Positions 17,458-37,581 of a DNA stretch of 64,000 bases are shown here, piece by piece. The translations under genes were made by a program, and so were the position numbers. Source of the DNA: Solwaraspora sp. WMMD792 (lineage in GTDB: Bacteria > Actinomycetota > Actinomycetes > Mycobacteriales > Micromonosporaceae); NCBI RefSeq assembly GCF_029626105.1, contig NZ_JARUBH010000009.1, positions 4,340,001 through 4,404,000 on the forward strand. The letters run 5' to 3'. The notes below the pieces were generated by a model. That model saw only the letters and a list, made by a program, of their open reading frames with translations. It was not told where the DNA came from and searched no databases. Within the stretch, counting starts at the first letter, position 1. The number at the start of each line of letters is the position of its first letter.

Positions 17458-17476
17458 CTCTGCAACTCCCAACTTG

Positions 17477-19271: not shown

Positions 19272-19284
19272 ACCGGCAACGCTA

Positions 19285-19310
19285 CCCCCTAGACGTTCAT
19301 ACGTCTGCCA
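19285..19310 (-). promoter_or_regulatory. Candidate autoregulatory operator ahead of the GntR gene
   Basis: On the minus strand TGGCAGACGT is followed by ATGA and ACGTCT, giving an AGACGT/ACGTCT inverted pair. GGCAGACGT is the same core as in the pra promoter. The site lies inside the reading frame if the ATG at 19382 is used. Confidence 0.45.
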
Positions 19311-19378
19311 GGTGGTCGGCGCTCCCGGACGGTCCGCCCACACCCGGCCCCGCACCACCCGGCGCGTGATCCGCTGGG

Positions 19379-20444: not shown

Positions 20445-20784
20445 CAGCACCTCCCACGCTGACAGGAGACCGGCGACCCCGCACGCAACCGGGGGGAAAC
20501 GCACAGAGCCGCCGGCCCCACCGCGAGATACGGCGCACCGCCCGGCGGGCGGAGTCGGGTCACGCCGCACCCCGACCAGGACGCGCACCACCCGCACCCC
20601 CACCACTGGAGGCGCAGACAGACAGTGCGCGAGACGTGTGGCCGGGACACCGAACGCAGCCAACCCCTTGATCACGAGCGGCTAACCCGACCACACACAG
20701 GGAAACGTACCTACAAGTGGACCTGTTGTCCAGACGTAGAAACGAGCAGCCAGACGGCACTTGACTACACAACAGACAGGTAAC
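20445..20784. other. Divergent regulatory region of the AICE, 340 bp
   Basis: The region lies between the minus-strand repressor operon and the plus-strand GntR-NACHT operon and should hold both promoters. An AT-richer stretch at 20690-20784 contains an imperfect ACAAGTGGACC-TGTTGT palindrome (about 20714-20730) and CCAGACGTA (20730-20738), which resembles the GGCAGACGT core. TTGACT at 20761 looks like a -35 box but lacks a well-spaced -10. Confidence 0.45.
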
Positions 20785-21591: not shown

Positions 21592-21617
21592 GCAGCATAC
21601 TTTCGATCGGAGTCGAC

Positions 21618-24608
21618 GTGCCAATAGAAGGAAATATTATTGGTCTAATAACAAAATCCGCCACATTTATCTTCTCGCATATAGAAAGAACAGTAAAGCG
21701 AAAAATAGAAGAATCAGAGCAAGAATTTTTTAGAACCTACATAAATTCGGATCGAGTAAGCCAGTCAGTCGCGTTGCACTCAGTTTCTGAGCCAAACGAT
21801 ATCGACAAGACCGAGCTGGAGAACTTCCTATCGGGACCAACCGCGCGCGCGATAGTACGAGAATTGCTAACCTCACACCTTGCGACAAGCGACTTCGACA
21901 GTCGACGACTTCGGGCGGCCTGGCAAATTAGCGCATGGTCAGAAATAAATCGAGTTCAAGCGTCAATCCTCAATCCATATCTGAATAAACTTTTCGACTG
22001 CATCGATGGGGAATCGCGCCGTCTATCTAGATTATTTGAGGAGAAATGTCCAAAAATCGCAGAAGACATCAGGAACGACGCAAAAATTGAACGGTTATCA
22101 AATATTCTAGAGTCAATGGAAAGGCACCTCTCATCCCTCCAGAGTATTAGCGCTGCCCAAATCGATAGCGAAGCAGATTTGATCGGCAAATACCGAAAGC
22201 AGGCAGCAAGGGCTCACGGATCTATCGAGCCTCCCGACTTCGAACGCCGAAGAAGACTGCACTACTCGACAATATACGTGAGCCCAAAATTTGCCGAAAG
22301 CGGTCGTCGCGAGACGGAACTCAACCTAGAAGATCTGATAGAGGAAATTGATCGAACGGTAATCTTGGGCGACCCGGGCGGTGGAAAATCGACTGCAGCT
22401 AACGTCATAACCACGATCTTCGCAGCAACTCCTACCTACCAGATACCGTTTTTTGTGTTACTGCGGGACTTCGCAGGCGAAATGGGCGAAAAATCAATCA
22501 TCGATTACTTAGCCCATCGATCATCGAGCCACTACCAGGTTGACCTATCCAGGGAGCTAATCCAGCGCCTTCTTGATACCGGCCGCGTGCTGGTAGTTTT
22601 CGATGGACTGGATGAGTTGCTCGATACGAGTCGCAGACGAGAGGTCGCGGACAGGGTCGAGCTTTTCTGCGCCAGGTACCCGTTATGCGCGGTGCTCGTG
22701 ACGTCTCGCCTAGTTGGATACCAGCGCGCGCCCATGGATCCAAAGGAGTTTCGAGTTATCGAAATTTCACGGTTCGACGATCAAGATGTACAGCTGTATG
22801 CAGAAAAGTGGTTCTCGCAGGAAAATCTATCGAGTACCGAAAAGCAGTTGGTTATTTCCTCATTTGTTGAGGAAAGCAAGGTATCCCCAGACCTACGGTC
22901 AAACCCGCTGATGCTAGCCCTCCTATGCATCATCTATAGAGGAGAACACTTCATTCCGCGGAATAGACCGGCAGTATATGAGAAATGCGCCACGCTTCTA
23001 TTCGATAAGTGGGATAGTAGCCGGCGCATCTACTCCAATCTTCAGGCCGGACACGCCGTGGATCCCGCGATGAAGTACCTAGCGTACTGGATGATGATGA
23101 ACGATAGTGCGGGAGAAGGAGTCACAGAGCACCAGCTGGTCGATCGAACGACGACCTATCTTAAGGGATACCTGTTCGAAACCGATGACCAAGCACGCGA
23201 AGCCGCGCGGGAGTTTGTAGAGTTTTGCAGGGGCCGAGCTTGGGTCTTTAACGACGCAGGCACGACCGCAGACGGCGAAGTCCTATACAAGTTTACCCAT
23301 CGTACATTTTTGGAGTACTTCGCGGCTTACCACATTACGCGGATAGGGGATTCACCCGAGCAGATCGCAGGCATGCTGGCACCCCACATCCTGCGGGAGG
23401 AGTGGGATATTGTCGCACAGCTTGCTACGCAAATCACCGATCGCCATAGCGAGAGAGGCGGCGAACGAATAGTTCGCTTCCTGCTTGCACAAATTGACAT
23501 AGATAATTCTACACGAAGCGCACTAATTTCCTTCGTTTCCCGATGTCTTTCATTCTTGGTGCTTCCCCCGACGCAAGTACGACAAATAGTATCTGAAGCA
23601 TATAGATTAATGACGGAATGCGTCTGGATTACACCCAAACCTTCAGGTTCCCCAAGCCCAAAGCAGGCGATGACCGCAATACTGGAAGCACTCACATCGC
23701 CAAACAATTCAACTATCCATGACGAGCTAACTTCCAGGATTAGAAACGACCTAAATTCAGAGGACACTTCGACAATAATGAGTGCTGCGGCATTCGCTTA
23801 TATGGGCATAAGGGCAGCAAGGCCCCGCGGATCACGCATTGCATTCGACATAGTCGAACCATCGCTCACGAAGATCATCCGGGACCACCGAGTCAAAATT
23901 GAACAGGCCGCAACGATCAACCATAACCTCTATGCCGGACTCCTGCCTCTCGAGGAGTTCAACATTGCCGAACCCTTAGCCAAGCACGGAATTGATTGGC
24001 TATTCGCCGGCTTTGACTACCCCGGATGGAGAATAGGGGTAACCCCATGTGCAGGGCAGATCCTAAGAACAATGGCCGGCGCTAGACAGAATCGAAACAA
24101 TATCTATTGGAGTCGAGTCGAGAAAATAAGCCAGTTTTTGCTTCAGCTCGACGACCCACCCTGGGGAAACGACCCAGAGATGGACCACACTCTGTCCCTG
24201 ACATCCGCGATGATGGACATCAGAAGGGCGGCCGGCTCAGGCAATTCCGAGAGTTCGGGGGACCTGAGCCCAGACGAATTAAACGTTGGCGGAGTTATTC
24301 TCTTCTTTATGCTTGAAAGCTCGGACACGTGGTTGTCAAAAGAGTCTGTTCTGGAATCTGGTCTAGGCCGGCTACAGTTCCTTTTGCCACTTATAAAGGT
24401 AAGGCTTGGTCAAGCAGAGGGGCCATCCTTCACTAAAGCACTGGACGATTTATCATCAGTTTACTCATCGGAGAAATCCTCGATGCTGCCGCTATTAAGG
24501 CGCTGGGCTCGTCGAGAAGTTAATTTCTCGGCACATACCTCGGTTGCAGTTCCTCAGCAGAGGGACTCACCCGAAAGAGAGCGTGCAGACTCCCCAGTTG
24601 CCGAATAA
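21618..24608 (+). CDS. NACHT-domain STAND ATPase (bacterial NLR-like), AT-rich cargo
   Basis: The 996-residue protein has three parts. Residues 1-240 are mostly helical with no recognised effector. A NACHT module follows: Walker A ILGDPGGGKST (about 251-261), sensor/Walker B VLVVFDGLDEL (about 324-334), VTSRLVGY, LRSNPLMLALLCIIY and the winged-helix signature YKFTHRTFLEYFAAYHI (about 557-573). Residues 574-996 are helical with no clear repeats and probably sense the trigger. Bacterial NACHT proteins of this build are antiphage sensors. The start is GTG 21618 after GGAG. Base composition and codon use are plainly more AT-rich than every neighbour, including many ATA and AGA codons, a sign of recent acquisition. 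Confidence 0.9.
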   Translation: MPIEGNIIGLITKSATFIFSHIERTVKRKIEESEQEFFRTYINSDRVSQSVALHSVSEPNDIDKTELENFLSGPTARAIVRELLTSHLATSDFDSRRLRAAWQISAWSEINRVQASILNPYLNKLFDCIDGESRRLSRLFEEKCPKIAEDIRNDAKIERLSNILESMERHLSSLQSISAAQIDSEADLIGKYRKQAARAHGSIEPPDFERRRRLHYSTIYVSPKFAESGRRETELNLEDLIEEIDRTVILGDPGGGKSTAANVITTIFAATPTYQIPFFVLLRDFAGEMGEKSIIDYLAHRSSSHYQVDLSRELIQRLLDTGRVLVVFDGLDELLDTSRRREVADRVELFCARYPLCAVLVTSRLVGYQRAPMDPKEFRVIEISRFDDQDVQLYAEKWFSQENLSSTEKQLVISSFVEESKVSPDLRSNPLMLALLCIIYRGEHFIPRNRPAVYEKCATLLFDKWDSSRRIYSNLQAGHAVDPAMKYLAYWMMMNDSAGEGVTEHQLVDRTTTYLKGYLFETDDQAREAAREFVEFCRGRAWVFNDAGTTADGEVLYKFTHRTFLEYFAAYHITRIGDSPEQIAGMLAPHILREEWDIVAQLATQITDRHSERGGERIVRFLLAQIDIDNSTRSALISFVSRCLSFLVLPPTQVRQIVSEAYRLMTECVWITPKPSGSPSPKQAMTAILEALTSPNNSTIHDELTSRIRNDLNSEDTSTIMSAAAFAYMGIRAARPRGSRIAFDIVEPSLTKIIRDHRVKIEQAATINHNLYAGLLPLEEFNIAEPLAKHGIDWLFAGFDYPGWRIGVTPCAGQILRTMAGARQNRNNIYWSRVEKISQFLLQLDDPPWGNDPEMDHTLSLTSAMMDIRRAAGSGNSESSGDLSPDELNVGGVILFFMLESSDTWLSKESVLESGLGRLQFLLPLIKVRLGQAEGPSFTKALDDLSSVYSSEKSSMLPLLRRWARREVNFSAHTSVAVPQQRDSPERERADSPVAE

Positions 24609-24887
24609 CCCTGTATTGAATCAAGGCGCCGCGCCGGGCGCGGCGCGCGGGCGGCAAGCCCGGCCGGCGGCAGGCCGCCCCGGACGCCTACGGCGCCGGG
24701 GCGGTAAGCCGCCGATTGCCGCCGGGACACCGCCCTTTTCGAACCAGAGGCACCGGCCCGACCAGGCCGTGACGGAAGCGACGTGGCTGGCCTGGTCGCG
24801 GGTCAGGGCTTCCGACTGCCGCGCCAGTCCAAGCCCGGGACTGGCTTGCCACCGACCACTCGGTGACGCCCGCGGACCGCGGCCCGG
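24609..24887. other. Convergent intergenic region with several GC hairpins
   Basis: GC content jumps sharply after the NACHT stop. At 24626-24646 GCGCCGCGCC and GGCGCGGCGC are separated by one base. CCGCCCCGG (24675-24683) pairs with CCGGGGCGG (24696-24704), and GCCAGTCC (24823-24830) with GGACTGGC (24838-24845). These can act as terminators for both convergent genes. No gene is supported. Confidence 0.6.
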
Positions 24888-26447
24888 TCAGGTCATCAGC
24901 TCCGCGCCGGAGTCCGAAAGCTTGTAGCGGTAACGCGTGGGCTCCAGGTCCTCGTCCATAGGTGTCCATGCGACCCAGCGCCGCACGCGCCCGCCAGCCG
25001 TCGTGATCTCGCCACTCGGCCGACGTGCCCACTCGATCTGGTCCACCACGACCAGGTGCGTCACGGCCCCATGTGCGTGCCGTACCTCGTTCCGGGTCAG
25101 CTCTACCGTGTCCGCGAGACCCGACGAGCCCTTAACCTCAACGTGGACCTCTTCACCGTCCTTGGTGGCTCGGAGGTCGTACGACTCTCGGTCCCCCACG
25201 TCCTCGACAGTCCACCCCTTGTACAGGGCACCCGCCCGGCGCACCGCGTGCCGCTCCAGGGCACGACGAAGCAACGGATCGGCGACGTACCCGGAACCAC
25301 TGGCCCGGCGCGACCGCCGCTTGCCAGGACCACCAGCGGGAATCGGTTCAACCTGCGGCACGCGGCGCCGCGGAATCGCCGCCAGCTCGGGAACCGCGTC
25401 CAGGATGACCGCGGGGAACTTCACAAGGTACGCCTGCATCACCCGAACCGGCCTGCTGTCGGAGAAGGCGAACGGAAAGTACAGCGGCCCAGAGTACGCC
25501 GCCTCCAGCCTCGCCCGGATCTCCCGAAGCGCTGCCTCCGCCCGCTGGAAGGCCACCTGATCAACCGGCGTCGGCAACGCCGTGTAGTCGGCCAGCTCAT
25601 AGCGCCACGAGGGCTGAGGTCGTCCCACGGTAGGCCGCGCCTGCCCATACGAGCCACGGGCATGCCAGACCAACTCATCCTCGAACGGTCCATCCGCGGC
25701 AAACGAATAGCCGACGATTCCGGGCACCTGACGTTGCGTCTGGTGCCAGTGCAGCACCACATCCCCCGGCCGGAGCGCGGTTACCAGGGCATACGACCAG
25801 TTCTCGCGCCCACTGCCGTCGCGCTGGAGCGCTTGGACGTTGGCCCCGAGGTCATCCCGGTTGGTGATCTCCAGCCAGTAGCACTCAGCCGGATCAGTGC
25901 GCCACCACTCGTTGAGTCGTACCGTGCCCCGCTCGACGGACCCGCGAGACTGCGGCGGCACCGCGGACGACCGTCCGGAAGCAAGCGATACCGACGAGCC
26001 GGCGGCAAGGTCGGCGGACAGCCTGTGCACCTCACCCGGACTGTACCCAGGCACATGGAGTCGCAGGCGCAGCCGCTTGCGGTTGTTGCCCGCTTTGGGT
26101 GCGCCCGGTGGCTGACCGATACGGCCCTGCCGGCTCGTCAACTGGAGTCGCAGCGCCGCCAGGTCGTCAACGGCCGCCAAGGACACTGGCCCGTCCAGCA
26201 ACCGCCGCTCAGTCTCGGGTAGATGGGCTGTCCGCTTCGAGTCGACCAGGGCGTCGACGAGCACCGCGCCGCGAGATCGCAGTCGGGCGAGGAGCAGTTC
26301 CAAAGCCGTGGTGTAGTCGGAGTTACGCGACGGCGCCAGACCGCCCCGCCCGCCCGCGCTCTCCAAGAGAAGCGCAAACGCTGGGCCGTCTAGCTCCACG
26401 ACAAACTCAGCATTCAGCACACGGCCATCGTCATCGGTCATCCGCAC
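24888..26447 (-). CDS. EVE-like plus DUF3883 (PD-(D/E)XK-type) nuclease, probable modification-dependent restriction enzyme
   Basis: The 519-residue protein appears to have three parts. The N-terminal 1-135 (FVVELDGPAFALLLES...DYTTALELLLARLRSRGAVLVDALVDS, then NNRKRLRLRLHVPGYS) resembles the head region of ScoMcrA-type enzymes as I recall it. Residues about 188-250 (YWLEITNRDDLGANVQAL, LRPGDVVLHWH, VPGIVGYS) look like an EVE/PUA domain, which binds modified bases. The C-terminal DUF3883 region (GWTVEDVGDRESYDLRA...EEVHVEVKG) shows the D...E-x-K of PD-(D/E)XK nucleases. I infer cleavage of modified foreign DNA. The start is GTG 26447 or ATG 26441; neither has a good ribosome site. Confidence 0.78.
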   Translation of the reverse strand: MRMTDDDGRVLNAEFVVELDGPAFALLLESAGGRGGLAPSRNSDYTTALELLLARLRSRGAVLVDALVDSKRTAHLPETERRLLDGPVSLAAVDDLAALRLQLTSRQGRIGQPPGAPKAGNNRKRLRLRLHVPGYSPGEVHRLSADLAAGSSVSLASGRSSAVPPQSRGSVERGTVRLNEWWRTDPAECYWLEITNRDDLGANVQALQRDGSGRENWSYALVTALRPGDVVLHWHQTQRQVPGIVGYSFAADGPFEDELVWHARGSYGQARPTVGRPQPSWRYELADYTALPTPVDQVAFQRAEAALREIRARLEAAYSGPLYFPFAFSDSRPVRVMQAYLVKFPAVILDAVPELAAIPRRRVPQVEPIPAGGPGKRRSRRASGSGYVADPLLRRALERHAVRRAGALYKGWTVEDVGDRESYDLRATKDGEEVHVEVKGSSGLADTVELTRNEVRHAHGAVTHLVVVDQIEWARRPSGEITTAGGRVRRWVAWTPMDEDLEPTRYRYKLSDSGAELMT

Positions 26448-26538
26448 GCCGTATAGCGTGCCACCCGCGTGCGACGCCAGTAGGGATCAAAATCGCCAGG
26501 GCACCTCAGGTTCGACCGGACGCAAGTACCACTCGCAG

Positions 26539-26859
26539 TCATAGGATCAAGTCCGCGCCGAGTAGGAACGGCGAGCCAGGTAGGTCCGGCTGCCAGCCGC
26601 GCACGAGCGCCTGGCGGATGGTTGTGGCGACCATCGCCGGGCGGACCGGCGTCGCTTCGGCGTGGACCCAGTTGCCGGGATGGGCGGACGCCACCCGTAC
26701 GACGAGGATCGCGCGACCGGGCGGGTCGACCCGCTCAACCGCGAACGTCAGCGGCGCCCACGCCAGGGCCTGGCGGTAGGTCGGCTTCCGGCGAACCGTC
26801 CAGCGGTACCGGCAGCCGTCGACGACGATCGGCCGACTCCCCCGCTTGACGACCGCCAC
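26539..26859 (-). CDS. Small conserved actinobacterial protein beside the nuclease gene
   Basis: The 106-residue protein begins MAVVKRGSRPIVVDGCRYRWTVRRKPTYRQALAWAPLTFAVE and ends VRPAMVATTIRQALVRGWQPDLPGSPFLLGADLIL. The pattern VDG-YRW-V-R, HPGNW and RPA-VA--IR-AL--GW-P is one I know from many short uncharacterised actinobacterial proteins. GTG 26859 follows GGAGGGGG at good spacing; an extension to 26922 would run through the arm-type repeat. It is 92 bases upstream of the nuclease gene on the same strand, so co-transcription is possible. The function is unknown. Confidence 0.7.
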   Translation of the reverse strand: MAVVKRGSRPIVVDGCRYRWTVRRKPTYRQALAWAPLTFAVERVDPPGRAILVVRVASAHPGNWVHAEATPVRPAMVATTIRQALVRGWQPDLPGSPFLLGADLIL

Positions 26860-26893
26860 CGAACCCCCTCCGGTCTCCACAGGAGCGCCGCCG

Positions 26894-26916
26894 CCGTACA
26901 GCCATTCGTACAGCCA
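26894..26916 (+). promoter_or_regulatory. Candidate arm-type integrase site at attR
   Basis: The same 23 bases as at 10767-10789, in the same orientation: two CGTACAGCCA copies separated by TT. It ends 86 bases before the attR core. Confidence 0.6.
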
Positions 26917-27002
26917 AGGCACCCGGCCGGGGCGGACGTTGGCCGACAGTCACGGACGGGCTGACCAGGGGCGGAAGCTCCCGGCCAGCCATCCATGATC
27001 TT

Positions 27003-27043
27003 CTTCTAATCCCAAGGTCGTAGGTTCGAACCCTACCGGGCGC
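27003..27043 (+). repeat. attR core, 41-bp direct repeat of tRNA-Arg 3' half
   Basis: This is identical to 10667-10707 and marks the right end of the AICE. It carries only the 3' half of the tRNA, so it is not a functional tRNA gene. The following base is G27044, whereas the intact tRNA has A10708. Confidence 0.95.
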
Positions 27044-27235
27044 GCCCAGTCAACCCAGGTCACGGCAGTTGATCGATGAGTGTTGCCAGCTCGGTCCCCA
27101 CCCGCCAGCGATGACCGTTTGGCCCCCGCGTGTCGGCTTTGCGGAGGAAGTAGCTGGGTTGACTGGTGAGCCATTATAGAGGTTCCGGCACCACGTGGTT
27201 ACGGCAGGTGAACTCGACGACAGCGGAGTGCGGCG
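27044..27235 (+). promoter_or_regulatory. Upstream region of the SCO2524-like operon
   Basis: These 192 bases are the original DNA downstream of the tRNA. A perfect 12-bp inverted repeat (CAGTCAACCCAG at 27047-27058 and its complement at 27154-27165) spans about 95 bases. The AT-richer CCATTATAGAGG at 27171-27182 could hold a -10 element. No gene is supported here. Confidence 0.45.
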
Positions 27236-29080
27236 GTGCGGATTCAGCCTCGGCAACACCTATTGGACATCTGGCGCGCAACCGCGAAGGCGTCCTGGCG
27301 CGACCGACAGTGGATGTGGGGCGGACGGGACGGGGCCAACTCGCTCAGCGACGCGGAGCAGTTGCTCTGCATCCTGCTGCCCGCGACCCAGCTACCGATC
27401 TTCGCCCTAGACCAGCCGGACACCACCAGCAACAGAGTCGCCGAAGCGCTGCGCGTGATCGGCGATGTCCACGTCATTCCGGCGACGCTGGTCCGCGTGC
27501 TCACCCAGTACTTCCGCCGCTACTCCGACGAGAACGGGCGGCCCACCTTCGCTGGCGGCAGCTACTTCAACGCCAGTTCCGGTGAAGCGCCAACGCCGGA
27601 GCAGGCAAGACTCGACATCGTCGACTCGTTCGCGGTGTCGGTCACCTTGTCGCTGGCGACGATCGGTTTCTCCCGGGTCTACCGGGAAACGCCGCAGCAG
27701 CCGGAGGATCTCCGCACCGAGATCCAGGCGCTCGAGGGCCTCGCCGCGGTGCGACTGACCGCGGCCATGGTGGGGCTGCTACGCAGTTTCGCCGTCTCCA
27801 CCTTCCCTGTCGACTCGACCGAGGGCAGCACGCTGCTGCGGACGGTGAACCAGGAGAACAGCGACGAGGAGAAGCTGGCCCAGCGGCTCCGGGACGCCCT
27901 CCAGGAGACCACCGCCTCACTGGGTGAGGTCCTGATCGGCTCCGGCCAGGTCACCACGCTTCGGGAGCGCCCGAACGACCTGTACGAGTGTGGCTGGTCA
28001 TGGGGCGTCATCAAGGACGCACCGGAGATCGAGGTCGAGGACAAGTCGATCGCCCCCAAGATCGAACAGCCGAAGGGCGTCGCGCAGAACGCGCCGTACC
28101 TCTACTTCACGGTGCTGGCGTTGGACGCGATCGAAGATCTCTTCTCCGAGCGCACCCGGGTGCTCAACCTGCTCAACGAGGAACAGCAGCGGCTGACCCG
28201 TGCGCTGCAGCTGCGCTGGGACCTCACCCGGCGGTACTGGGCGACCGTCGCGACGTTCGGCAACGGCGCGCGTTGGCCCATCGAGGACATCCCGTGGCGG
28301 ACGACCGACCTCGACGAGTCCGACTATTACACTCTGCTCGTCACGTCCGCGGCGGTGAAGGGCCTCGCCCAGGAACGCGGCTCCGACGTACAACTGTCCC
28401 GGATCGGCGCGGTCCTGTCCGAACTGGCGCAACGCGCCCGGGTCACCCGACGCCCGGCCGGTTCCGACGACAGTGCCCAGGCGTTACACTCACCCGGTGT
28501 CGAGCTCACACTGGTGGGCAGCGAGATCGGCGGTGGCGAGCGGCTGCGCTGGCCGGTCAGTGAGTTCTCCTCGCTGCTCCTGCAACGCTCGGTGGTGATC
28601 GCGACGCTGATCCGCGACGTGGCACAGCGTGAGCGGATGTTGAACCTGGCCGATCAGGCCTGGGCGCACCTGGCGGTTCGTCGGCTGAGCAGTGACGTGC
28701 AGTTGTGGGACCAACCGGCTGAGGTCTTCCCGGGCGCCAAACGACACGAGAAGCCGTCCTGGTACTACACGGAGCGGGTGGTGCAGGCTCTGGTCAGCGC
28801 CGCCAAGCTGTTGATCCAGGAGCCGCTGGTCGATCCGGACCTGACCGAAATGGCGGCCGCGATGCTCGCCGAAGCCGAGCATCTGTACGACATGGAACTG
28901 ATGAACGGCTCGGTACCCAGCAACGTGAACGAACTCGGCAAGACCCTCATCAAGATCCGAATGCACCTGGAGCGTGGCCGGCAGATGGCGCGTACCCGCC
29001 CCGGCACCACCGTCGCGCTGGCAAGCGAGTCACTCAGGCTGCTGGACGAACTGGCATCGGCCCGGCAGGAGAACGTCTGA
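27236..29080 (+). CDS. SCO2524-family conserved protein
   Basis: The 614-residue protein begins MRIQPRQHLLDIWRATAKASWRDRQWMWGGRDGANSLSDAEQLLCILLPATQLP, which I recognise as the start of the SCO2524 family of actinobacteria. It is predicted to be soluble and almost all helical, with several long amphipathic helices in the second half. No enzymatic motif is seen. It is the first gene of a three-gene operon with overlapping stops and starts (ATGA to the next gene). The family has no established function as far as I know; members sit next to SCO2521, SCO2522, SCO2523 and SCO2525 homologues. The start is GTG 27236 with GCGGAG upstream. Confidence 0.8.
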   Translation: MRIQPRQHLLDIWRATAKASWRDRQWMWGGRDGANSLSDAEQLLCILLPATQLPIFALDQPDTTSNRVAEALRVIGDVHVIPATLVRVLTQYFRRYSDENGRPTFAGGSYFNASSGEAPTPEQARLDIVDSFAVSVTLSLATIGFSRVYRETPQQPEDLRTEIQALEGLAAVRLTAAMVGLLRSFAVSTFPVDSTEGSTLLRTVNQENSDEEKLAQRLRDALQETTASLGEVLIGSGQVTTLRERPNDLYECGWSWGVIKDAPEIEVEDKSIAPKIEQPKGVAQNAPYLYFTVLALDAIEDLFSERTRVLNLLNEEQQRLTRALQLRWDLTRRYWATVATFGNGARWPIEDIPWRTTDLDESDYYTLLVTSAAVKGLAQERGSDVQLSRIGAVLSELAQRARVTRRPAGSDDSAQALHSPGVELTLVGSEIGGGERLRWPVSEFSSLLLQRSVVIATLIRDVAQRERMLNLADQAWAHLAVRRLSSDVQLWDQPAEVFPGAKRHEKPSWYYTERVVQALVSAAKLLIQEPLVDPDLTEMAAAMLAEAEHLYDMELMNGSVPSNVNELGKTLIKIRMHLERGRQMARTRPGTTVALASESLRLLDELASARQENV

Positions 29081-30003
29081 TGTTCGTCTTCGCGATGTCC
29101 GACAAGGGGGGCACCGGCCGGTCGGTCACCAGCATCAACGTGCTCTATCGAGCCGCGATGCGCGGCGACGACGTGTGTTATCTCGACTTCGACTTCGGAT
29201 CGCCGACTGCTGGCGCGATCTTCGGAGTCAGCGGCGTCGAGCGCGGCACCGATGGCGGCAACGGACTACACCGGTACCTGCATGGCAAGGCGGTGGGCGA
29301 ACTCAAGCGCATCGACATCTGGCGGGAGGCGCGCGGGTTGGGGGGCCGACCGGCCGGTGCCGGCCAGCTCACCCTGTTTCCCGGTGACGAGGGCGGCGGC
29401 GAGTTCGCCCGTCCGCCCTCGGGCGAGATGATCGACCGCTGCGCCGACCTGTTCCAGCGACTCAGCGAGGAGTTCAGCGTCTGCCTGATCGATCTCAGCG
29501 CGGGCCGGTCCATCGCCACCGAGTTGGCTCTCGCCGCCACGAACCGCCCACAGACGACTCGGATCCACAGCCAGTGGCTGGTCTTCCACCGGTGGACCCG
29601 GCAACATGTGATCGCGGCGGCCGGGCTGGCGTTCGGGGTCAACGGGCTGCTGGAGCAGGCCGAGGCACGGGGCCACGATCCGGCCGGCTTCAACCGACGA
29701 ATCCGGTTCGTACGGACGGCGACCATCGACCCGGCAGTGCCCGCCCGGCTCACCGGCCTCAGCGCCACCCAGGTCGCCTGGCTACAGAAACGCAACCAGG
29801 AGCTCGACACGCTGGCCAGCACCAACGGCGTGGGCCGAAGCGTGAGACTCGGTACCGTACCGCTGGACCCGATGCTGCAATGGCAGGAGCAGCTGATTTC
29901 GGACGAGGACGTCGCGCGCGGAGTCGCAAACGGGGCGACACTGGAAGCGTTCGAAAACCTGGCCGAGCGCATCACGGACAAGTCAACCTGGGAGCAGTCC
30001 TGA
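29080..30003 (+). CDS. SCO2523-family variant P-loop protein (MinD/ParA-like)
   Basis: The 307-residue protein begins MFVFAMSDKGGTGRSVTSINVLYRAAMRGDDVCYLDFDFGSPTAGAIF. This is a MinD/ParA-type deviant Walker A in which the usual G-K-[ST] lysine is replaced by arginine (KGGTGRS), while the signature lysine of KGG is kept. The D-F-D-F-G-S stretch follows as Walker A'. A later VCLIDLSAGRS has the Walker B position. It may bind nucleotide in a dimer but with altered hydrolysis. The operon position between SCO2524- and SCO2522-like genes is the conserved one. The role of the group is unknown. Confidence 0.85.
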   Translation: MFVFAMSDKGGTGRSVTSINVLYRAAMRGDDVCYLDFDFGSPTAGAIFGVSGVERGTDGGNGLHRYLHGKAVGELKRIDIWREARGLGGRPAGAGQLTLFPGDEGGGEFARPPSGEMIDRCADLFQRLSEEFSVCLIDLSAGRSIATELALAATNRPQTTRIHSQWLVFHRWTRQHVIAAAGLAFGVNGLLEQAEARGHDPAGFNRRIRFVRTATIDPAVPARLTGLSATQVAWLQKRNQELDTLASTNGVGRSVRLGTVPLDPMLQWQEQLISDEDVARGVANGATLEAFENLAERITDKSTWEQS

Positions 30004-30947
30004 TGACGGTTACAGTGGCGTACGAGGAAAGCACGGCCGGGCCGCGCATGCAGCAGGCGGCGCTGGCACACGTCTCCGTCGAGCTGGGACACCTGTACGC
30101 TGAGGACTTCGAGCGCGGCCCCGACTATCTCACTGAGCACTTCGCCCAGGTACGGCCGTGGCTCGAGGTGGTCAGCGCGCAGCAGGTGGCGCGGACCGGC
30201 CGGCCGGCGCGGCTGAGCACCTGCTTTCTGATCGACGACTACTTCACCCCGTTCGGTAGCCCGCGCCAGGTCTTCGAGCAGTTGCAGAGCGCGGCAAGGG
30301 CCAGCGGCGTCCAGCTCGATCACATCGCCCGCGAGTCGGGGTGTGTCCTCGCCGATGGCGTCCGGTTGGCGGAACTGGTACTCGACAAACTGGTGTCGGA
30401 GCCGACCCCCAATACCACCGGTGCCCGGCCGCCGACCGCCGAGACCGGGTGGCTGGCAAACGGCCTACGGTCGGCCGGCACCGATCAGGCGATGTCGTTC
30501 GTGCCGTGGACACCGCCGCGGGAGAACGCACGGAACAGGCACTCGATCTTCGTCGACGTGGAGCTGTGGGACGACCAGGGCGAGGACCGGCGTTGGGCGT
30601 GCACCTACCTGGCGGCGGTCTGGCAGCTGGCCCGGCTGGGGGTTCTCCGCGACAAGGACGGCGACGTGGCGGTGCAGGCCTACAAGGTCGACGAACTGCC
30701 GGACCAGTGGGCGGACCTGCCGGCCGTCGTCCAGGTCAACCCGAAGGCGAATCCATTCACCGCCTACCGGACCTTCTCCATCCTCAACTCCCGGTATCTG
30801 CCGGTGGAACTTGCTGCCCGGATCGTGCTGGGCCAGGTCGCCATCGACGATCACATCGTGCTGCAGATTCTGGAGCGGGCCCGGCGGGAGGGCATCACCT
30901 TGGACAAGTCGACGGTCGGACGGATCGAGTACGCGTTCGTCAACTGA
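30003..30947 (+). CDS. SCO2522-family conserved protein
   Basis: The 314-residue soluble protein has family features: VSVELGHLYAEDFERGPDYLTEHFAQVRPWLE, STCFLIDDYFTPFGSPRQVFEQL, and late NSRYLPVELAARIVLGQVAIDDHIVLQILERARREG. LIDDYF is strongly conserved in the SCO2522 group as I remember it. Its ATG overlaps the SCO2523-like stop by one base (TGATG). Its 3' end overlaps the convergent NACHT-HEAT gene by 8 bases. The function is unknown. Confidence 0.8.
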   Translation: MTVTVAYEESTAGPRMQQAALAHVSVELGHLYAEDFERGPDYLTEHFAQVRPWLEVVSAQQVARTGRPARLSTCFLIDDYFTPFGSPRQVFEQLQSAARASGVQLDHIARESGCVLADGVRLAELVLDKLVSEPTPNTTGARPPTAETGWLANGLRSAGTDQAMSFVPWTPPRENARNRHSIFVDVELWDDQGEDRRWACTYLAAVWQLARLGVLRDKDGDVAVQAYKVDELPDQWADLPAVVQVNPKANPFTAYRTFSILNSRYLPVELAARIVLGQVAIDDHIVLQILERARREGITLDKSTVGRIEYAFVN

Positions 30948-33900
30948 TCCGGCCTGGAGCGACCGGATCGCCGAGATCGCCCGGACCCGTGTCGGGAAAG
31001 CGTTCGACCTCCGCCTCGCCGGTCCACACCAGGGTCGCCTCGATGACCCGACGCACGTCCGGCGGCTGCTCGCGCTGCAACGCCGCGGTCAGTGAATCGC
31101 GTACTGCCTGATCATGCCCGAGGCGGCGGCCGAGGATGTGTACGGCCACCGTACGAACTGGCCGCTCGCCGTCGGTCAGCAGCTGCAGCAGTAGCGCCCG
31201 GACGTCCGGTAGGTGCGCGGCGACGGCCACCGCAGCCAGGGCAACGCAGCGCAGCCGCAGGTCGCCGCCGGATGCGGCGACGGCCGACAGCCGCAGGCGG
31301 ACCTCCCGGTTGGACTGGCACCAGGTCGCCAGCGACCGAGCCGCCGCGCAACGAATGTCCGCGTTCGGATCGGACAACCTGGTCAGCAGGAGGCCTGGCA
31401 GGTCCGGCCGGTCGGCGAACTGACGGACGGCCGCAGCGGCCACGGCCGTGACGACGTCCGGGTCCGGGTCCTCCCGCAGCCGGCCGCATACCACCTGGTA
31501 CGCGCGGTCAACCACCGCGAACCGGTTGGCCAGCAGGGCCAGGGCGGCGGCGCGCAGCTCCGGATTCGCGTCGGCGGTTCGCAGCGCCACCACCTCGAAC
31601 ACGGCTTGGGCGGCGGAGACGTCGTCCATCCCCTTCATCAGATCAAGTACGGCCGCAGCGGCCAGGTCGAACACCTCGGCGTCAACGTCCCGGGCCAGGA
31701 CGCGTAGCAACAGCGGGTGGTGCTCCGGTTCGAGCCCATCCTGCAGAATCCGGTTCAGCGCCGCCCAGCGGACCCTGGCCGACCTGTCGTCGTCAACCAC
31801 ATCGACGAGCAGCCGCCTGGCGTCACCGGTCAACTGCCGGTTCGGCAGGGCGGCCACGGCTGCGAGTCGTACGCCGGTGTCCGGGTCGGTGGTGGCGACA
31901 GCCGCGAATGCCTCGGCCTCACCCTGCTCGGCCAGGGCAGGCGTCAGCGCCCGTACGGCGGCGAGGCGCACGGCCGGCACCTGTTGCAGGTCGCGGGCGA
32001 GGGCCAGCACGGCCCCCCGCTGCCGGGGGTCCCGCATCAAGCCGACGGCCGATCCCGCCGCCAGCAGCGCGACCCGCACCCCGGGGTCGGGGTCGACGCG
32101 GACCAGCCCGATCAGATCGTCGGCGGTCGCCTCCTCGACGGGCAGGACCTCGACGACGACGGCGGCGAGGGCGGCACGGACCGCCTCGTCGGAATCGGCC
32201 CGCAGCCTGGACATGAGAATCTCGCGCACCTCGGCGGGTCGGTCGGCCAGCACCGCCTGCGCGGCCGCCCGGACCACCGTCGCGTCGGCATCGGTCGTGA
32301 TCCGGCGCAGGAACAGGTCGGGTTGGGACACCGGGTCGACCTCACGGGCGAGAAGCTTGATGGCCGCCGCCCGGATCGCGGCGTCCGGGGCGTGCTCGGC
32401 CCGGTGGGCGAGTACGCCCCGCAGGGCGACCGCCAGGGGCGAGCGGGCGAGCAGGGGCGGGGCCGCCAGCAGCAGCACGTCGGCCTGGGTGTCCAGTTCA
32501 CAGCGGTCGAAGAGGGCCTGTTCCACCCGGTCGCCCGGCTCGGTCAGGGCCGCCAGCAGCCGTACCACGGCGGCCCGGACGACGTGGCGGGCGTCGCTGG
32601 CGCAGCCGAGCAGCACCGGCAGCAGGCTGGGCTCGGCGTCAAGTTCCGCTCCGAGGTGCTGGACGGCGGCCAGTCGCACGTACGCGTACGGATCGTTGCG
32701 GGTTCGGTCGACGAGGACGTCGCGGACCCGCCTGAGCGCAGCGAACCGGCCGAGTGCCTCTACCGCAGTCAGTCGCACGACTGCCCGGCCGTCGCCGGTC
32801 GCGGCGGTGACGAGTTCGTCCAGTGCGGTCCGACCCGCGCTGGCGGCCGCTCCGGTCGCCTGTTCCCGGTCGGCGGCCTCGGCCAGGCCCTGCAGGGCGG
32901 CGTTGGCGATGCGGACGTCTCCCTGCGCGGCGATCGCCTCGCCCTGCCGGGTGGGCAGCTGGTCGGCTGGTCTGGCCAGGAAGCTGGCCAGCCGGGCGGC
33001 GTGGCCCGCCACCGCGTCGTCGATCCACCGGCCACGCCGGACGTACCAGGACAGGTAGGCTTCCCGGCCGGGCCAGGCCGGACCGATCACCGCGGCTGCC
33101 GGCAGGATCTCGTCCTCGATCAGCACTGCGGCCGCCGTGATCGCGTCGCGGGGTGGCCGCAGCCCGGGCAGCGCCTCCTCCAGATCTGTCTCCAGCAGCG
33201 GCGCGCACTGTTCCAGCAGGATCACCAACCGGCGCAGCAGGTGTTCGGCGGCGGGCACCCGGCCGATCCGGCGTACCTGGGACAGGCACTGCACCGCGAG
33301 GGCGAGGTTCCAGGGTAGCGGTGCGTTCTCGGTCACCAGCCAGTCCCCGTTGGTCCGAGCCAGTTGGTCGATCAGTTCTCCGTTGTCGGCCTCGCTGAGC
33401 TCGCCGGCGAGCAGCCGGAGGACCTCCCGCCAGGATGCCTCGGGCCAGTGTTGCCCGAAGACCTCCTTGACCCGCTCGAAGGACCAGGCGCGCTCGTGGC
33501 GGAACTTGTCGAGAATCGCGGCGGCGGCGAAGAACTCCAGGAACGTCCGGTGTACGAATCCGTACATGTGCGAGCCGTAGAGGCTCAGGATGAAATTCCG
33601 CTCGCGCAACTGGTCGATCATCCGCCCGGCTGTCTGGTGTGCGGTGGCGCGGTCGTGTTCGTACCGCTCCACCAGGTATTCGACGAACACCTGTACCAGG
33701 TCCTCGCGGGCGATGTAGCCGCCGCTCTGCCCTATGTTGCCGGTCTGCATCTCGAATGCCAGCCTGCGTAGTAGCTCCTGCTTGTCCTCGGCATCGAACT
33801 GGGCGACCTCGCCGGGTACCAGGTCCCGACTGACCTCCCAGTGCTCGACCAGCACGTCGGCGGCATGGTGGTAGAGCTTCCAGCGGTCACGCGGCAGCGC

Positions 33901-35370
33901 CTGGTGCCGATTGATGATTGCCAGAATGGTCAGCAGCATCGGATTGCCTGCCAGTTCCCGCAGCGGCCGGGAGCCGGTGATGTCGCGCATCAGGCCGGCG
34001 CTGCGTTGCGCCGCGTCGCGGGCGTCCTGGCCGAGCACCCCGATGAACCAGCGGGTCAGAAAAGTCCTGATCTGTCCAAGATCGAGGTCCTGCAGGGTGA
34101 AATGCGCGAAACCGGCGTTGGCCAGGGTGCGCCGGACGTTTCCGTGCGCCCGGGAGGTGTATTCCAGGATACGTGAGGTCACGATGACCCTGACCGTGCT
34201 GAACTGGGTCGAGAACGCCGCGATCTGCTCGGCCACCTCCTGTCGACGACGGCCGTCGAAGATCTCGTCGAGACCGTCGAAGATGACCACCGTGGGTGCC
34301 CCGGCGGCGAGATGGTCGTCCAGGGCCTGCGGGTGGAGAGCGAAGACGCCGGCCTCGTACCGGTACCCGAGGTAGCCGAGGAAGTTGGCGCACTTGCCCT
34401 CGGCGCGGATGGCCGCGTACATCCGGACCTCGACCACGATCGGCAGGCACTCCCGCAGCGGCGCCAGCCGCGGATCAGCCTGGCTGTCGGCAAGCTGCAG
34501 CGCGAGGTACCGCGCGACGGTCGACTTGCCGGCACCGGGATTGCCGAGCAGTACGGTCAGCCGGCGTTCCGGCTCGACCAGGACGTCGAAGACCGGCTGT
34601 CGTGGTTTGGCCCGGTACGCGTCGTGCAGCATCGCCATCGGCTCGGCGGCCACGTCCTCGGACCCGTCCGGGCCCCGCCCCGGGTCCGCGTCGGACAGCC
34701 GCGCCCACCACTCCCGGGGAAGTTCCACCGGCGGCGGATCGGCGCGCACACTCGGCTCGACGAAGACCGAGGAGAGGCTGACCCGCAGGGTGCCGGGGTC
34801 GTTCTGCGGTGGAGTGAGGGTGTCCAGGTCAAGGTTGCCCAGCTGGCTGCGGAGCTGGTCGAGGTAGCGTCGACGCGCCTGTGTGTCGAGCACCGGCACG
34901 GCCGGCGAAGCGTTCGCCAGATGTACGGCCAGCGCCGCCGTCGCCTTGGCCGCCAGGTCAGAAGAGTCCACGAACTTGCTGCACAGGTAGGCTCCCTCCA
35001 GACGTCTGCGGAGGGCGTCGACGCGGGACGCGTCGGGTTCCCGGTCGACGTACCGCCGTGGCCACCTCGCTTCCTCGTCGAGCAGGAAGATCAGGCAGGG
35101 CTTGCCGGCAGCGGCGGCGGCCTGGAACTCAAGTTCGGTGATCGAAGCGTTGTGCCCGGACGGGATGAAACCGTACCGCCAGGCGAAGATACCGAGGTAG
35201 ATGTCGCAGCGACGGACATCGGCCAGACAGCGGTCGAGAGGGCGCCTCGGTTCAGCTACGTAGGACTCCATGGCGACGTCCTGCAGACCCAACCGGCGAA
35301 TCGCCTCGGCAACCGCTTCGCGGCAGTCCACCAGGTCCTCATACGTCGCGGAGACATAGACCTTGGCCAT
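30940..35370 (-). CDS. Giant DUF4062-NACHT-HEAT STAND protein
   Basis: The 1476-residue protein has an N-terminal DUF4062 domain (AKVYVSATYEDLVDCREAVAEAI...YVAEPRRPLDRCLADVRRCDIYLGIFAWRYGFIP, about 1-110), a TIR-like Rossmann domain also found in NWD1/TEP1-type proteins. NACHT follows: Walker A LLGNPGAGKST (about 273-283), Walker B VVIFDGLDEIFD (about 357-368), VTSRILEY, AGNPMLLTILAIIN, and MYGFVHRTFLEFFAA near 605. From about 790 to the end are some 15-20 HEAT-like repeats (for example VRAALAAVV, VRLAAVAAL, VRWAALNRIL). ATG 35370 follows GGGGAG; an extension to 35457 is unsupported. It fits an immune-type sensor: effector, switch and repeat ligand platform. Confidence 0.92.
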   Translation of the reverse strand: MAKVYVSATYEDLVDCREAVAEAIRRLGLQDVAMESYVAEPRRPLDRCLADVRRCDIYLGIFAWRYGFIPSGHNASITELEFQAAAAAGKPCLIFLLDEEARWPRRYVDREPDASRVDALRRRLEGAYLCSKFVDSSDLAAKATAALAVHLANASPAVPVLDTQARRRYLDQLRSQLGNLDLDTLTPPQNDPGTLRVSLSSVFVEPSVRADPPPVELPREWWARLSDADPGRGPDGSEDVAAEPMAMLHDAYRAKPRQPVFDVLVEPERRLTVLLGNPGAGKSTVARYLALQLADSQADPRLAPLRECLPIVVEVRMYAAIRAEGKCANFLGYLGYRYEAGVFALHPQALDDHLAAGAPTVVIFDGLDEIFDGRRRQEVAEQIAAFSTQFSTVRVIVTSRILEYTSRAHGNVRRTLANAGFAHFTLQDLDLGQIRTFLTRWFIGVLGQDARDAAQRSAGLMRDITGSRPLRELAGNPMLLTILAIINRHQALPRDRWKLYHHAADVLVEHWEVSRDLVPGEVAQFDAEDKQELLRRLAFEMQTGNIGQSGGYIAREDLVQVFVEYLVERYEHDRATAHQTAGRMIDQLRERNFILSLYGSHMYGFVHRTFLEFFAAAAILDKFRHERAWSFERVKEVFGQHWPEASWREVLRLLAGELSEADNGELIDQLARTNGDWLVTENAPLPWNLALAVQCLSQVRRIGRVPAAEHLLRRLVILLEQCAPLLETDLEEALPGLRPPRDAITAAAVLIEDEILPAAAVIGPAWPGREAYLSWYVRRGRWIDDAVAGHAARLASFLARPADQLPTRQGEAIAAQGDVRIANAALQGLAEAADREQATGAAASAGRTALDELVTAATGDGRAVVRLTAVEALGRFAALRRVRDVLVDRTRNDPYAYVRLAAVQHLGAELDAEPSLLPVLLGCASDARHVVRAAVVRLLAALTEPGDRVEQALFDRCELDTQADVLLLAAPPLLARSPLAVALRGVLAHRAEHAPDAAIRAAAIKLLAREVDPVSQPDLFLRRITTDADATVVRAAAQAVLADRPAEVREILMSRLRADSDEAVRAALAAVVVEVLPVEEATADDLIGLVRVDPDPGVRVALLAAGSAVGLMRDPRQRGAVLALARDLQQVPAVRLAAVRALTPALAEQGEAEAFAAVATTDPDTGVRLAAVAALPNRQLTGDARRLLVDVVDDDRSARVRWAALNRILQDGLEPEHHPLLLRVLARDVDAEVFDLAAAAVLDLMKGMDDVSAAQAVFEVVALRTADANPELRAAALALLANRFAVVDRAYQVVCGRLREDPDPDVVTAVAAAAVRQFADRPDLPGLLLTRLSDPNADIRCAAARSLATWCQSNREVRLRLSAVAASGGDLRLRCVALAAVAVAAHLPDVRALLLQLLTDGERPVRTVAVHILGRRLGHDQAVRDSLTAALQREQPPDVRRVIEATLVWTGEAEVERFPDTGPGDLGDPVAPGRIS

Positions 35371-35443
35371 CCGCAACTCCCCGGCAAGCGCCCACAGCGA
35401 GGTTCTACCGTAAACGCAACGCGCAAGGCGCGGTACCCCGTGT

Positions 35444-36388
35444 TCAGGCCGTGGCACCGACGAGTGCGAATGCCTCCTTTGCGCACGCCCAGGACAGGCT
35501 CACCCCGCTACCTCCGTGACCGTAATTGTGGATCAACCAGTCCTGCTCCCGTTCGACCCGAACACTGGGCCGCATCGGACGGAACCCGGCCCGCCACTCG
35601 AGAATTTCCGACCCGGCCAGCAACGGCTCGATCGCGGCGCACCGGGCGACGATGCGACGCAACGCGTCCGGACCGTTCACCGGCACGCTCTCCACGGTGC
35701 TCCCGAGCACCACCCGGTCCGGCCCATGCGGCACGAACCAGGTCAGCTCGGGTGCCTCGCCCGCTTCGGCAAAGAACGCGTCGAGGCCGGGATTGGTGAC
35801 CACCACGACCCGACCGAGCAACGGGGTGACCGACGGGTCCGGCACCAGTTGCCGCGCGCCGCTGCCGGTACAGTTGACGACCAGGTCTGCGGCGGCCCGT
35901 AGTGCGGCGAGGTCGTCGACGTCGGCGACGGCCATCGTGCCACCGGCGGCGAGGAGCCGCCGGGCGAGGTACGTCGAGTAGACCGGCATGTCGACCGACG
36001 CCGTGGTGAAGCGCCAACCGCTGTGGTAGCCCGACGGCAGGTCCTCCGAGCGGCAGTACTCGAACCCGGGGAGGTCACAGAGCAGTGCGTTCGGCTGTGC
36101 CGGTCCCCGGGCGGCCTCGATCCCGGAGACCAGCCGCACCCCGGTCTGCACCGGGTCGGCGGCGAGTACGGCGAGTTCGGACAGAGTATCGGCAGCCCAC
36201 CGCCCGCTGCGCGGATCGTCGGTGAGGTACGGCCCCCACATGGCGCCAGCGGCGCATGAGTCGGTGTTGGGTGGTAGCTCCCGGGCCAGTACCCGCACGG
36301 TCAGGCCGCGCTCAGCGAACCAGACGGCGGTCGTCAGACCGATCACTCCGGCGCCGACGATGCAGGCATCGACCACTCTAGAAGTCAC
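35444..36388 (-). CDS. D-amino-acid oxidase-like FAD enzyme
   Basis: The 314-residue flavoprotein has N-terminal VDACIVGAGVIGLTTAVWFAERGLTVRVLAR (FAD Rossmann, GxGxxG), TSDSCAAGAMWGPY-like early loop, VNCTGSGARQL, FVPHGPDRVVLGST, and the DAO C-terminal signature GFRPMRPSVRVE then NYGHGGSGVSLSWACA. DAO enzymes oxidise D-amino acids to keto acids with O2. The R in RPSVRVE is the usual substrate carboxylate partner. The start is GTG 36388; no strong ribosome site is seen, and a second GTG lies four codons in. It sits between the NACHT-HEAT gene and the SCO2521-like gene; no known link explains this. Confidence 0.87.
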   Translation of the reverse strand: MTSRVVDACIVGAGVIGLTTAVWFAERGLTVRVLARELPPNTDSCAAGAMWGPYLTDDPRSGRWAADTLSELAVLAADPVQTGVRLVSGIEAARGPAQPNALLCDLPGFEYCRSEDLPSGYHSGWRFTTASVDMPVYSTYLARRLLAAGGTMAVADVDDLAALRAAADLVVNCTGSGARQLVPDPSVTPLLGRVVVVTNPGLDAFFAEAGEAPELTWFVPHGPDRVVLGSTVESVPVNGPDALRRIVARCAAIEPLLAGSEILEWRAGFRPMRPSVRVEREQDWLIHNYGHGGSGVSLSWACAKEAFALVGATA

Positions 36389-36579
36389 TACTCGACATTA
36401 TGGGGTCACGGCGTGCCAACACATCGCCCGCTTCGTCTCGCCCGACGGAACGGACCCCCGGAGAGGGTCCTATCCTGCGCACAGCGTGCTGTTCGGTCAC
36501 CAGATGTCGTTAGTTGCAGAGACTGCGCGTCCGCCCCCAGGCGCCGGTGACCACGGCAGCCATCCACCACGGAGAAACA

Positions 36580-37527
36580 ATGTTCACCTTCGGCGAAGTC
36601 CACACGGGGCTGCTACAGAACTCCACGCCGCTCACCACGGACCGGGCGGCCGAGGTGCTGAGCCCGTTGTGCGGCGCACAGTTACAGCGATTCGAGCGAC
36701 CGATGCAACGGATCATAACTGCGGATCGCCCGATCGGCGTGGACTGCCGGCTTCCTGCTGCCTCCGGCGGAAACCCGCATGTTGTCGGTACCGTGCTGTG
36801 GCACGCCGGCATCACCGGGGGCCATCTCGCGCAGAGCAACGTGTTCGCGGCCGTGGTGCCGGCTGCGGAGCGGCGCCGGATGCCCTGGGAGCACTACACA
36901 GCCTTCCCCGGGCGCCTGGAGCTGCTCAGCGACGCCAAGCCCGAGGACCTGACACAGGGATACCTCCACGGTAGGAGTCGGCCCAACGATCTGGACACCA
37001 CAGCGATCGCGACCCAAGCGTTCGACCGGTTGCAGAGGTCGCAGTTGCTGGACCGGCGACCCACGCTGCGTACCAGGCGCACCAGGCTGCGCTGGACGGC
37101 CACCGGCACCGGAAAGACGCCCCAGCCGATCACCGTGACGTTCCGGATGGTCTCAGAGGACCTGCGTACCGTCGACGTCAAGGTGGCCGACGAGTTCGTC
37201 CCGGGTGTCCTGGGGCTGTGCGAGGATCTGGCGCTGCACGACTGGCTGCTGACCACCGTGTCCCGGTTGCTCGAACTCACCCTCACCACCCGACTCGGTC
37301 CGGTCGAGAAGGCCGACCAGCTGCGTCCCGCGGTGGAGTACTTCCTGCACCTGTGGATGCCGGGAGCCCGGGTCGACGAGGTACTCAAGCCGGTATGGCA
37401 GGAACTGGACCGCCGCCCCGGTTTCAGCCGGCAGTGGGACACGTCGGTGGCGCGGGTACGCGACCAGATCAGCCTGGGCACGATCGAGTTGCTGAAGCTC
37501 ACGCATGCACTGCGGCGAGATGCTTGA
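36580..37527 (+). CDS. SCO2521-family conserved protein
   Basis: The 315-residue protein starts MFTFGEVHTGLLQNSTPLTTDRAAEVLSPLCGAQLQRFERPMQRIITADRPIGVDCRLP, which resembles the SCO2521 family N terminus (GEV-TGLLQNS) as I recall it. A VGTVLWHAGITGGHLAQSN segment and a helical C-terminal half (WLLTTVSRLLELTLTTRLG, DQLRPAVEYFLHLWMPGARVDEVLKPVWQEL) follow. ATG 36580 follows GGAG; a frame extension to 36514 has none. In other genomes it is next to SCO2522-2525 homologues; here two minus-strand genes separate it from them. The function is unknown. Confidence 0.72.
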   Translation: MFTFGEVHTGLLQNSTPLTTDRAAEVLSPLCGAQLQRFERPMQRIITADRPIGVDCRLPAASGGNPHVVGTVLWHAGITGGHLAQSNVFAAVVPAAERRRMPWEHYTAFPGRLELLSDAKPEDLTQGYLHGRSRPNDLDTTAIATQAFDRLQRSQLLDRRPTLRTRRTRLRWTATGTGKTPQPITVTFRMVSEDLRTVDVKVADEFVPGVLGLCEDLALHDWLLTTVSRLLELTLTTRLGPVEKADQLRPAVEYFLHLWMPGARVDEVLKPVWQELDRRPGFSRQWDTSVARVRDQISLGTIELLKLTHALRRDA

Positions 37528-37581
37528 GCCGACGTTTCAGGCCGGGACGCCAATGGCGGCGACCGGGCTGACCCGGGCGGA

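Follow-up and report, generated by a model that had tools for sequence, protein, structure and literature searches.

An accessory SCO2521-2524 gene set with a proposed exchangeable output, here a DUF4062-NACHT-HEAT protein that probably depletes NAD, in Solwaraspora sp. WMMD792

Introduction

The protein families SCO2521 to SCO2525, named after genes of Streptomyces coelicolor, have curated models (NF040564-NF040568), and no mechanism for them was found in one full-text search of openly licensed papers in PubMed Central. Here, we describe a cluster of six genes (positions 27236-37527) that combines the families SCO2521 to SCO2524 with a large STAND protein in Solwaraspora sp. WMMD792. The window is the whole stretch of DNA analysed, 64,000 nucleotides of contig NZ_JARUBH010000009.1 (forward-strand positions 4,340,001 to 4,404,000). 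Our best reading is that the cluster is a real and accessory multi-gene system, not described before, whose output can be exchanged and in this genome probably depletes nicotinamide adenine dinucleotide (NAD).

Bacterial STAND proteins of the NACHT/Avs defence class, as we take them to be built, have an N-terminal enzyme-like domain, an intact NACHT domain and C-terminal superhelical repeats, as does the window STAND protein, which differs from them by its four-gene partner set. DUF4062 domains have been reported as TIR-like antiphage NADases in a 2026 preprint (PMC13174449). According to excerpts of that preprint, the antiphage system Swarozyc requires E97 of its DUF4062 protein, which binds the phage portal through a helix-turn-helix/winged auxiliary domain, and human TEP1, NWD1, NWD2 and NPHP3 carry DUF4062 beside NACHT, several eukaryotic proteins of this type having WD40 repeats. 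The window STAND protein shares DUF4062 and a Glu at the catalytic position with the former, and DUF4062 next to NACHT with the latter; in place of the Swarozyc auxiliary domain it has NACHT-HEAT by Pfam, next to a four-gene core, and it differs from the eukaryotic proteins by its HEAT repeats and its bacterial gene cluster. Actinobacterial conflict systems of the VMAP-ternary/FxSxx type are described, in the part of PMC7159879 available, as coupling predicted inactive MinD/ParA-like domains to AP-type STAND ATPases with varied effector domains. The cluster shares these features but differs in that no vWA, MoxR, peptidase or peptide-precursor was found among its six genes by NCBIfam and Pfam, VMAP not having been sought by name.

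The S. coelicolor set has the same four families in the same order (2524-2523-2522). In five loci of genus g79, presumably Streptomyces, the genes run methyltransferase-2524-2523-2522-2521 and are followed by a DUF6879-type protein, whereas in the window the oxidase and STAND genes lie before SCO2521 and the STAND protein takes the place of the output. The S. coelicolor-type set also has the SCO2525 methyltransferase, which was not found in the window's genome.

Results

The genes of the cluster and the domains of its STAND protein are:

27236-29080, plus strand: SCO2524-family protein, 614 residues (NF040567, 827 bits against a cut-off of 300)
29080-30003, plus strand: SCO2523-family MinD/ParA-like protein with the variant P-loop SDKGGTGRSVT (NF040564, 429 bits against 200)
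30003-30947, plus strand: SCO2522-family protein, 314 residues (NF040566, 410 bits against 200)
30940-35457 (long frame), minus strand: DUF4062 (TIR-like)-NACHT-HEAT STAND protein (Pfam DUF4062 1.6e-22, NACHT 6.4e-7, HEAT_2 8.8e-26)
34045-34563, minus strand: NACHT NTPase domain of the STAND protein (Pfam, residues 299-471)
35116-35364, minus strand: DUF4062 domain of the STAND protein, with the motif SITELEF at its end (Pfam, residues 32-114)
35444-36388, minus strand: flavoenzyme of the D-amino-acid/D-aspartate oxidase family (Pfam DAO, 1.4e-34)
36580-37527, plus strand: SCO2521-family protein, 315 residues (NF040565, 338 bits against 150)

All four core families exceed their curated NCBIfam equivalog cut-offs and are clustered on the plus strand, and TGATG overlaps join SCO2524 to SCO2523 and SCO2523 to SCO2522. 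The 5.63 kb between the end of SCO2522 and the start of SCO2521 are filled by the STAND and oxidase genes on the minus strand; the 3' ends of SCO2522 and the STAND gene overlap by 8 bp in tail-to-tail orientation, and the oxidase gene lies upstream of the STAND gene on the same strand. An earlier note, made from the letters of this stretch, had described an overlapping trio with SCO2521 5.6 kb on and DUF4062-NACHT-HEAT and DAO-like genes in the middle, and the family models, the junctions and the Pfam and PDB matches bear this out. The SCO2521 open frame spans 36514-37527, with the NF040565 match beginning four residues past the ATG at 36580, and the STAND protein probably starts at the ATG at 35370, giving 1,476 residues against about 1,505 in the long frame. 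The note also saw no SCO2525-type methyltransferase, and none was found in the whole genome by NCBIfam model search, nor in 14 control genomes; the model can detect the family, as it matched in 8 of 396 genomes (5 above cut-off).

The slot adjoining SCO2521 was surveyed across 101 loci (80 named loci, 20 from further genomes, and the window). The named loci are the best 80 of 351 SCO2524-encoding stretches in a genome-contig scan, kept with their flanks, so distant members are under-sampled; gene calls in the neighbourhoods come from a GC-frame script and not from an annotation. Among the 96 loci with both SCO2522 and SCO2521 (leaving out L051, L078, L095, L113 and L137), the slot holds a STAND protein in 28, a DUF6879 membrane protein (F6) in 56, both in none, and neither in 12. 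DUF6879 was matched at 0.1 or better in 21 of 24 aligned F6 members (best 1.8e-11), a PDB sequence search with this protein gave nothing better than 0.033, and hydropathy of 50 members shows one or two hydrophobic segments within the N-terminal 85 residues, with one extra in L101. Five of the 12 remaining loci (L130-L134) carry a third membrane-protein family tail to tail with SCO2521, in frames of 274-370 residues that are 35-49% identical (one pair 90%) and have two hydrophobic segments close to the C-terminal end. Pfam gave nothing convincing in the four members scanned, and the label 'channel-like' that we use for this family reflects our own interpretation of the motif and not the output of a tool. 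The seven loci left are L057, L112, L136, L140, L141, L142 and L144, among which L136 is a scoring artefact, as it has two tandem clusters, one of them with the DUF6879 protein.

The earlier note had treated the set as split around the STAND gene. Such an arrangement is normal for loci of the STAND subtype: it recurs in eight named loci (L040-L046 and L048), with a mirror layout in others, and a rearrangement private to the window's genome was rejected. In a tree of three concatenated core proteins from 95 loci, L136 being omitted (FastTree only, with long-branch warnings), the 28 STAND rows fall inside a clade of 29, the five channel-like rows form one clade, and F6 is widespread; the row nearest to the window is L040 (Paractinoplanes pyxinae), at 74%. 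Two loci hold neighbouring SCO252x copies (L136:2447-18316 and L140:7886-14820), with SCO2524 and SCO2523 51-54% and SCO2521 38% identical, a hint of diversification.

The linkage was also examined from the STAND side, with a 690-residue N-terminal stretch of the protein as query in 200 genomes of the family (53 match at 1e-30). Among 30 STAND orthologue loci, the window included, SCO2521 lies in the short flank of 28 and DAO in that of two (L200 and L201), whose wider stretches hold all four core genes. The STAND protein is thus linked to the set from both sides (28 of 96 slots, and all 30 orthologues), as the earlier note had supposed, although the two tests are only partly independent, because at least 9 of the 30 STAND genomes had already been seen through SCO2524 (the window and at least eight genomes of the SCO2524 sets). 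The long STAND matches G959:C32 and G969:C1:7905990 and several shorter ones fall outside this reading. For twelve NACHT-HEAT relatives, the match does not include the DUF4062 part; the 17 kb around them contain no SCO252x genes, and DUF4062 was found in neither of the two scanned with Pfam. By eye, the N-termini of two NACHT-HEAT relatives without DUF4062 (L203:5899-9624 and L210:7418-11500) resemble two hydrophobic helices.

Six further STAND copies comprise two that are linked to the core (L217 and L218) and four that stand alone (L214, L215, L216 and L219). SCO2523 and the adjoining STAND gene of L218 (G191) are each matched in two frames and so are probably broken or misassembled. L214-L216 are long frames of 2,018-2,162 residues, L215 resembling the other two by eye, and Pfam resolves two of them as follows:

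L214:7589-13771 and L216:6945-13430: long standalone protein with DUF4062, NACHT, HEAT, a second nSTAND NTPase and a C-terminal TIR_2

The L214 and L216 proteins hold two TIR-type domains within one chain. From this architecture, the long copies with the added nSTAND and TIR_2 appear able to dispense with the core. The standalone copies, together with the near restriction of the STAND arrangement to one clade (28 of its 29 rows), are what would be expected if the STAND protein and the core were mere neighbours whose linkage was passively inherited, with no joint function. We consider this very unlikely, as adjacency is kept across STAND proteins of 35-61% best-segment identity to that of the window and in two opposite layouts, and was recovered in every orthologue fetched from the STAND side.

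Key residues of the STAND protein are conserved. Glu E110 (long-frame numbering), which faces the DUF4062 catalytic position, is present in 26 of 26 aligned STAND proteins and E108 in 24 of 26, and the NACHT Walker A Lys and DGLDE motif are intact in all 26 relatives. In a PDB sequence search, the DUF4062 domain weakly matches solved chains of human TEP1 (0.0018) and KpSwz (0.019). The weak alignment to KpSwz chain 10wc places an Ala opposite E110 and a Glu opposite E108; the Ala would be the published E97A change, and under either alignment reading a Glu is retained in at least 24 of 26. NAD cleavage by the window STAND protein is likely, since DUF4062 proteins are reported NADases and both the catalytic-position Glu and the NACHT motifs are conserved.

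Among the core proteins, SCO2524 (in an alignment of 16 members) has no Pfam match at 0.001, and its PDB sequence search gave nothing better than 0.033; PDB sequence searches with SCO2521, SCO2522 and SCO2523 gave no matches. In SCO2523 the P-loop Lys is replaced by Arg in all 79 relatives, although the MinD-type KGG lysine is kept in 78 of 79; the protein weakly matches the KGGVGR-motif variant AAA ATPase model NF047398 (4.7e-9, under the model's cut-off). The AlphaFold2 models of SCO2522 and SCO2521 (mean predicted local distance difference test scores 87 and 94) are both mixed alpha/beta, so of the 'two large helical partners' proposed in the earlier note only SCO2524 could fit the description. 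The SCO2521 model has no PDB fold match at 0.001. The fold matches of SCO2522 are weak, led by class I aminoacyl-tRNA synthetases (CysRS, the best at 9.6e-3, and ArgRS), with a cyclodipeptide synthase at rank 9; as none reaches 1e-3, we do not take an aminoacyl-tRNA-synthetase-like fold as established.

This fold list, together with two enzymes found near the core, would suit a pathway for the synthesis or modification of a small molecule or of an aminoacyl or peptidyl signal, to which the STAND or membrane protein would respond. An SCO2525-type example matches the NNMT/PNMT/TEMT methyltransferases (PF01234, 3.3e-6), and one example exceeds the NCBIfam cut-off (321 bits against 240). For the window oxidase, PDB matches to D-aspartate and D-amino-acid oxidases (9.5e-40, 6rkf, and 2.1e-34) span almost the whole protein, and DAO-type genes lie near SCO2521 in 41 of 56 DUF6879-type and 5 of 28 STAND-type loci, counts that include divergent forms because the threshold was only 35 bits. 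Such a pathway is nevertheless improbable, given that no SCO2522 fold match reaches 1e-3, that neighbours judged transporter-like by eye are shared by no more than 8 of 80 loci, and that both enzymes are optional, being absent together from, for example, L040, L041 and L043-L045. With SCO2524 as reference, SCO2525 is found at a distance of up to 3 kb in 35 of 56 DUF6879-type and 16 of 28 STAND-type loci, and was rejected as a fixed member of the set on account of the other 21 and 12. A search for precursor peptides covered three short gaps in the window.

Of the seven genus genomes, only that of the window has SCO2522, and the six genus-mates lack the set. For SCO2524, the counts are 28 of 298 genomes in the order and 7 of 396 in the phylum (the genus, order and phylum counts include the window's own genome), and 38 of 199 genomes over cut-off in g79. 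All 80 named loci come from actinobacterial records, one of them (L100) on a record titled plasmid. The SCO2521-2524 set is therefore accessory and patchy rather than core; the earlier note had named universal presence in the core genome as the finding that would count against its proposal.

The cluster lies in a region of the chromosome that varies within the genus. The conserved left flank stops at a tRNA-Arg gene (10636-10711) and the right flank begins at about 37580, and the interval between the same flanks is 26.9 kb here compared to roughly 2.3 to 22 kb in genus-mates. Window 10728-37580 is thus a variable region after tRNA-Arg, of roughly 2.3-26.9 kb across the seven genus genomes. Its features outside the cluster are:

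10667-27076: integrative element at tRNA-Arg(tct), bounded by tRNA-end repeats
10790-11926: integrase, inside the element
12132-13913: RepSA, pSAM2-type, inside the element
15039-16799: FtsK/SpoIIIE-type protein, inside the element
18459-19769: GntR/UTRA regulator, inside the element
37536-37580, no strand assigned: 45-bp remnant of the 3' end of a permease-like frame (93% to L164:1785-1829)

A 75-bp repeat of the tRNA end (89%; 10667-10739 and 27003-27076) marks both borders of the element, which we take to be of the class called 'actinomycete integrative and conjugative element'. As delimited, it does not include the SCO252x set, which starts 160 bp past the right repeat. An 8.8-kb block of the element (12183-21005) has a second copy in the same genome (C9:5906655-5915451, 91%); genomes G004 and G001 carry near-copies, and G002 a partial one. 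Inside the element there are also a second NACHT protein (996 residues, 21618-24608, in a stretch of about 51% G+C) and a NOV_C-domain protein (24888-26447). The 45-bp remnant corresponds to the end of frame L164:1786-3234 of genus-mate G004, permease-like by eye, and stands directly before the conserved chromosome, with window 37580 onward aligning to L164:3366 onward.

Discussion

We favour, at a probability of about 0.5, a regulated self-killing or growth-arrest response, acting here through NAD loss, whose output is controlled by the core. The SCO2521-2524 proteins would form a sensing or licensing module over one dedicated output encoded beside SCO2521, and this output would vary by lineage: a membrane protein, of either the DUF6879 or the channel-like type, or, here, the TIR-like-NACHT-HEAT STAND protein. 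A trigger, most plausibly phage or a comparable internal threat, would be sensed through the HEAT repeats, the core or both; the NACHT domain would oligomerise upon it, and DUF4062 would then destroy NAD so that the cell stops or dies. The trigger, the oligomerisation, the NADase activity and the control of the STAND protein by the core are what we infer from the co-occurrence of the families, the exclusive occupation of the slot, the conserved motifs and the accessory distribution. A broader and more tentative proposal is that SCO2521-2524 are the shared core of a new actinobacterial programmed-death or immune class, with a four-protein sensor that includes a MinD-like protein with a non-canonical P-loop and with at least three unrelated executioners, and may act as the in-trans counterpart of the fused STAND-TIR tail of the standalone relatives.

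Several results weigh against a self-killing response. The slot exclusivity reflects about two replacements and not dozens, as STAND arose about once and the channel-like type once on the tree; with each type being about one clade, a Fisher p-value was rejected as proof. Seven of 96 loci, the L136 artefact among them, have no recognised output, four of the six further STAND copies stand alone, with L219, of ordinary length, a plain exception, and the methyltransferase and oxidase are left unexplained. Searches of 50,697 phage and 72,556 plasmid records returned no SCO2524. PADLOC-DB 2.0.0 has no family for the six cluster proteins beyond weak matches (best 0.0015), and its STAND models gave no match at 0.01 apart from generic ATPase models. 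At 1e-10, PADLOC families match at most 4 of 100 genes in near flanks compared to at most 7 of 100 in far flanks (>4.5 kb; 100 of 146 near and 100 of 119 far genes scanned, deduplicated), and defence-island linkage in general was rejected. The neighbourhood survey suggested in the earlier note thus yields the STAND linkage but no enrichment beside catalogued defence genes; the note's multi-protein sensing or conflict system stands as a real multi-gene set with a member of a reported antiphage NADase family (in the excerpts of PMC13174449), and lacks the expected linkage to defence genes. In some clades the flanking genes, metabolic by eye, are common to the loci, as in stable chromosomal loci. 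In the portions available, PMC11472566 places the operon sco2521-sco2526 in a HupS-controlled cluster and terms SCO2525 necessary for normal growth, PMC6344877 gives SCO2525 a morphogenetic role, and a further paper cites it for effects of S-adenosylmethionine.

These reports, along with the MinD/ParA-like protein in the core, the lack of defence-gene enrichment in the flanks and the actinobacterial origin of all 80 named loci, would fit physiological signalling, in which the core, together with its membrane or STAND partner, would set the timing of growth, septation or differentiation, and killing, if any, would belong to development and not to defence. We regard this as unlikely, though less so than the other alternatives: the set occurs in only some genomes of a genus (38 of 199 and 1 of 7), SCO2525 itself is optional, and development would be an unusual role for a TIR-like-NACHT output; in this genome the set lies next to an integrative element, within a variable region, and six genus-mates lack it.

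While the names of SCO2521-2525 were already curated, what is new is that the neighbour slot is filled by differing outputs, one of them a TIR-like receptor of an NADase family. An orphan co-occurrence thereby becomes a testable hypothesis on NAD and survival. If regulated self-killing is correct, actinobacteria would have an immune-type system to which catalogued defence genes fail to point, and there may be a reason why losing the methyltransferase of the set disturbs Streptomyces growth.

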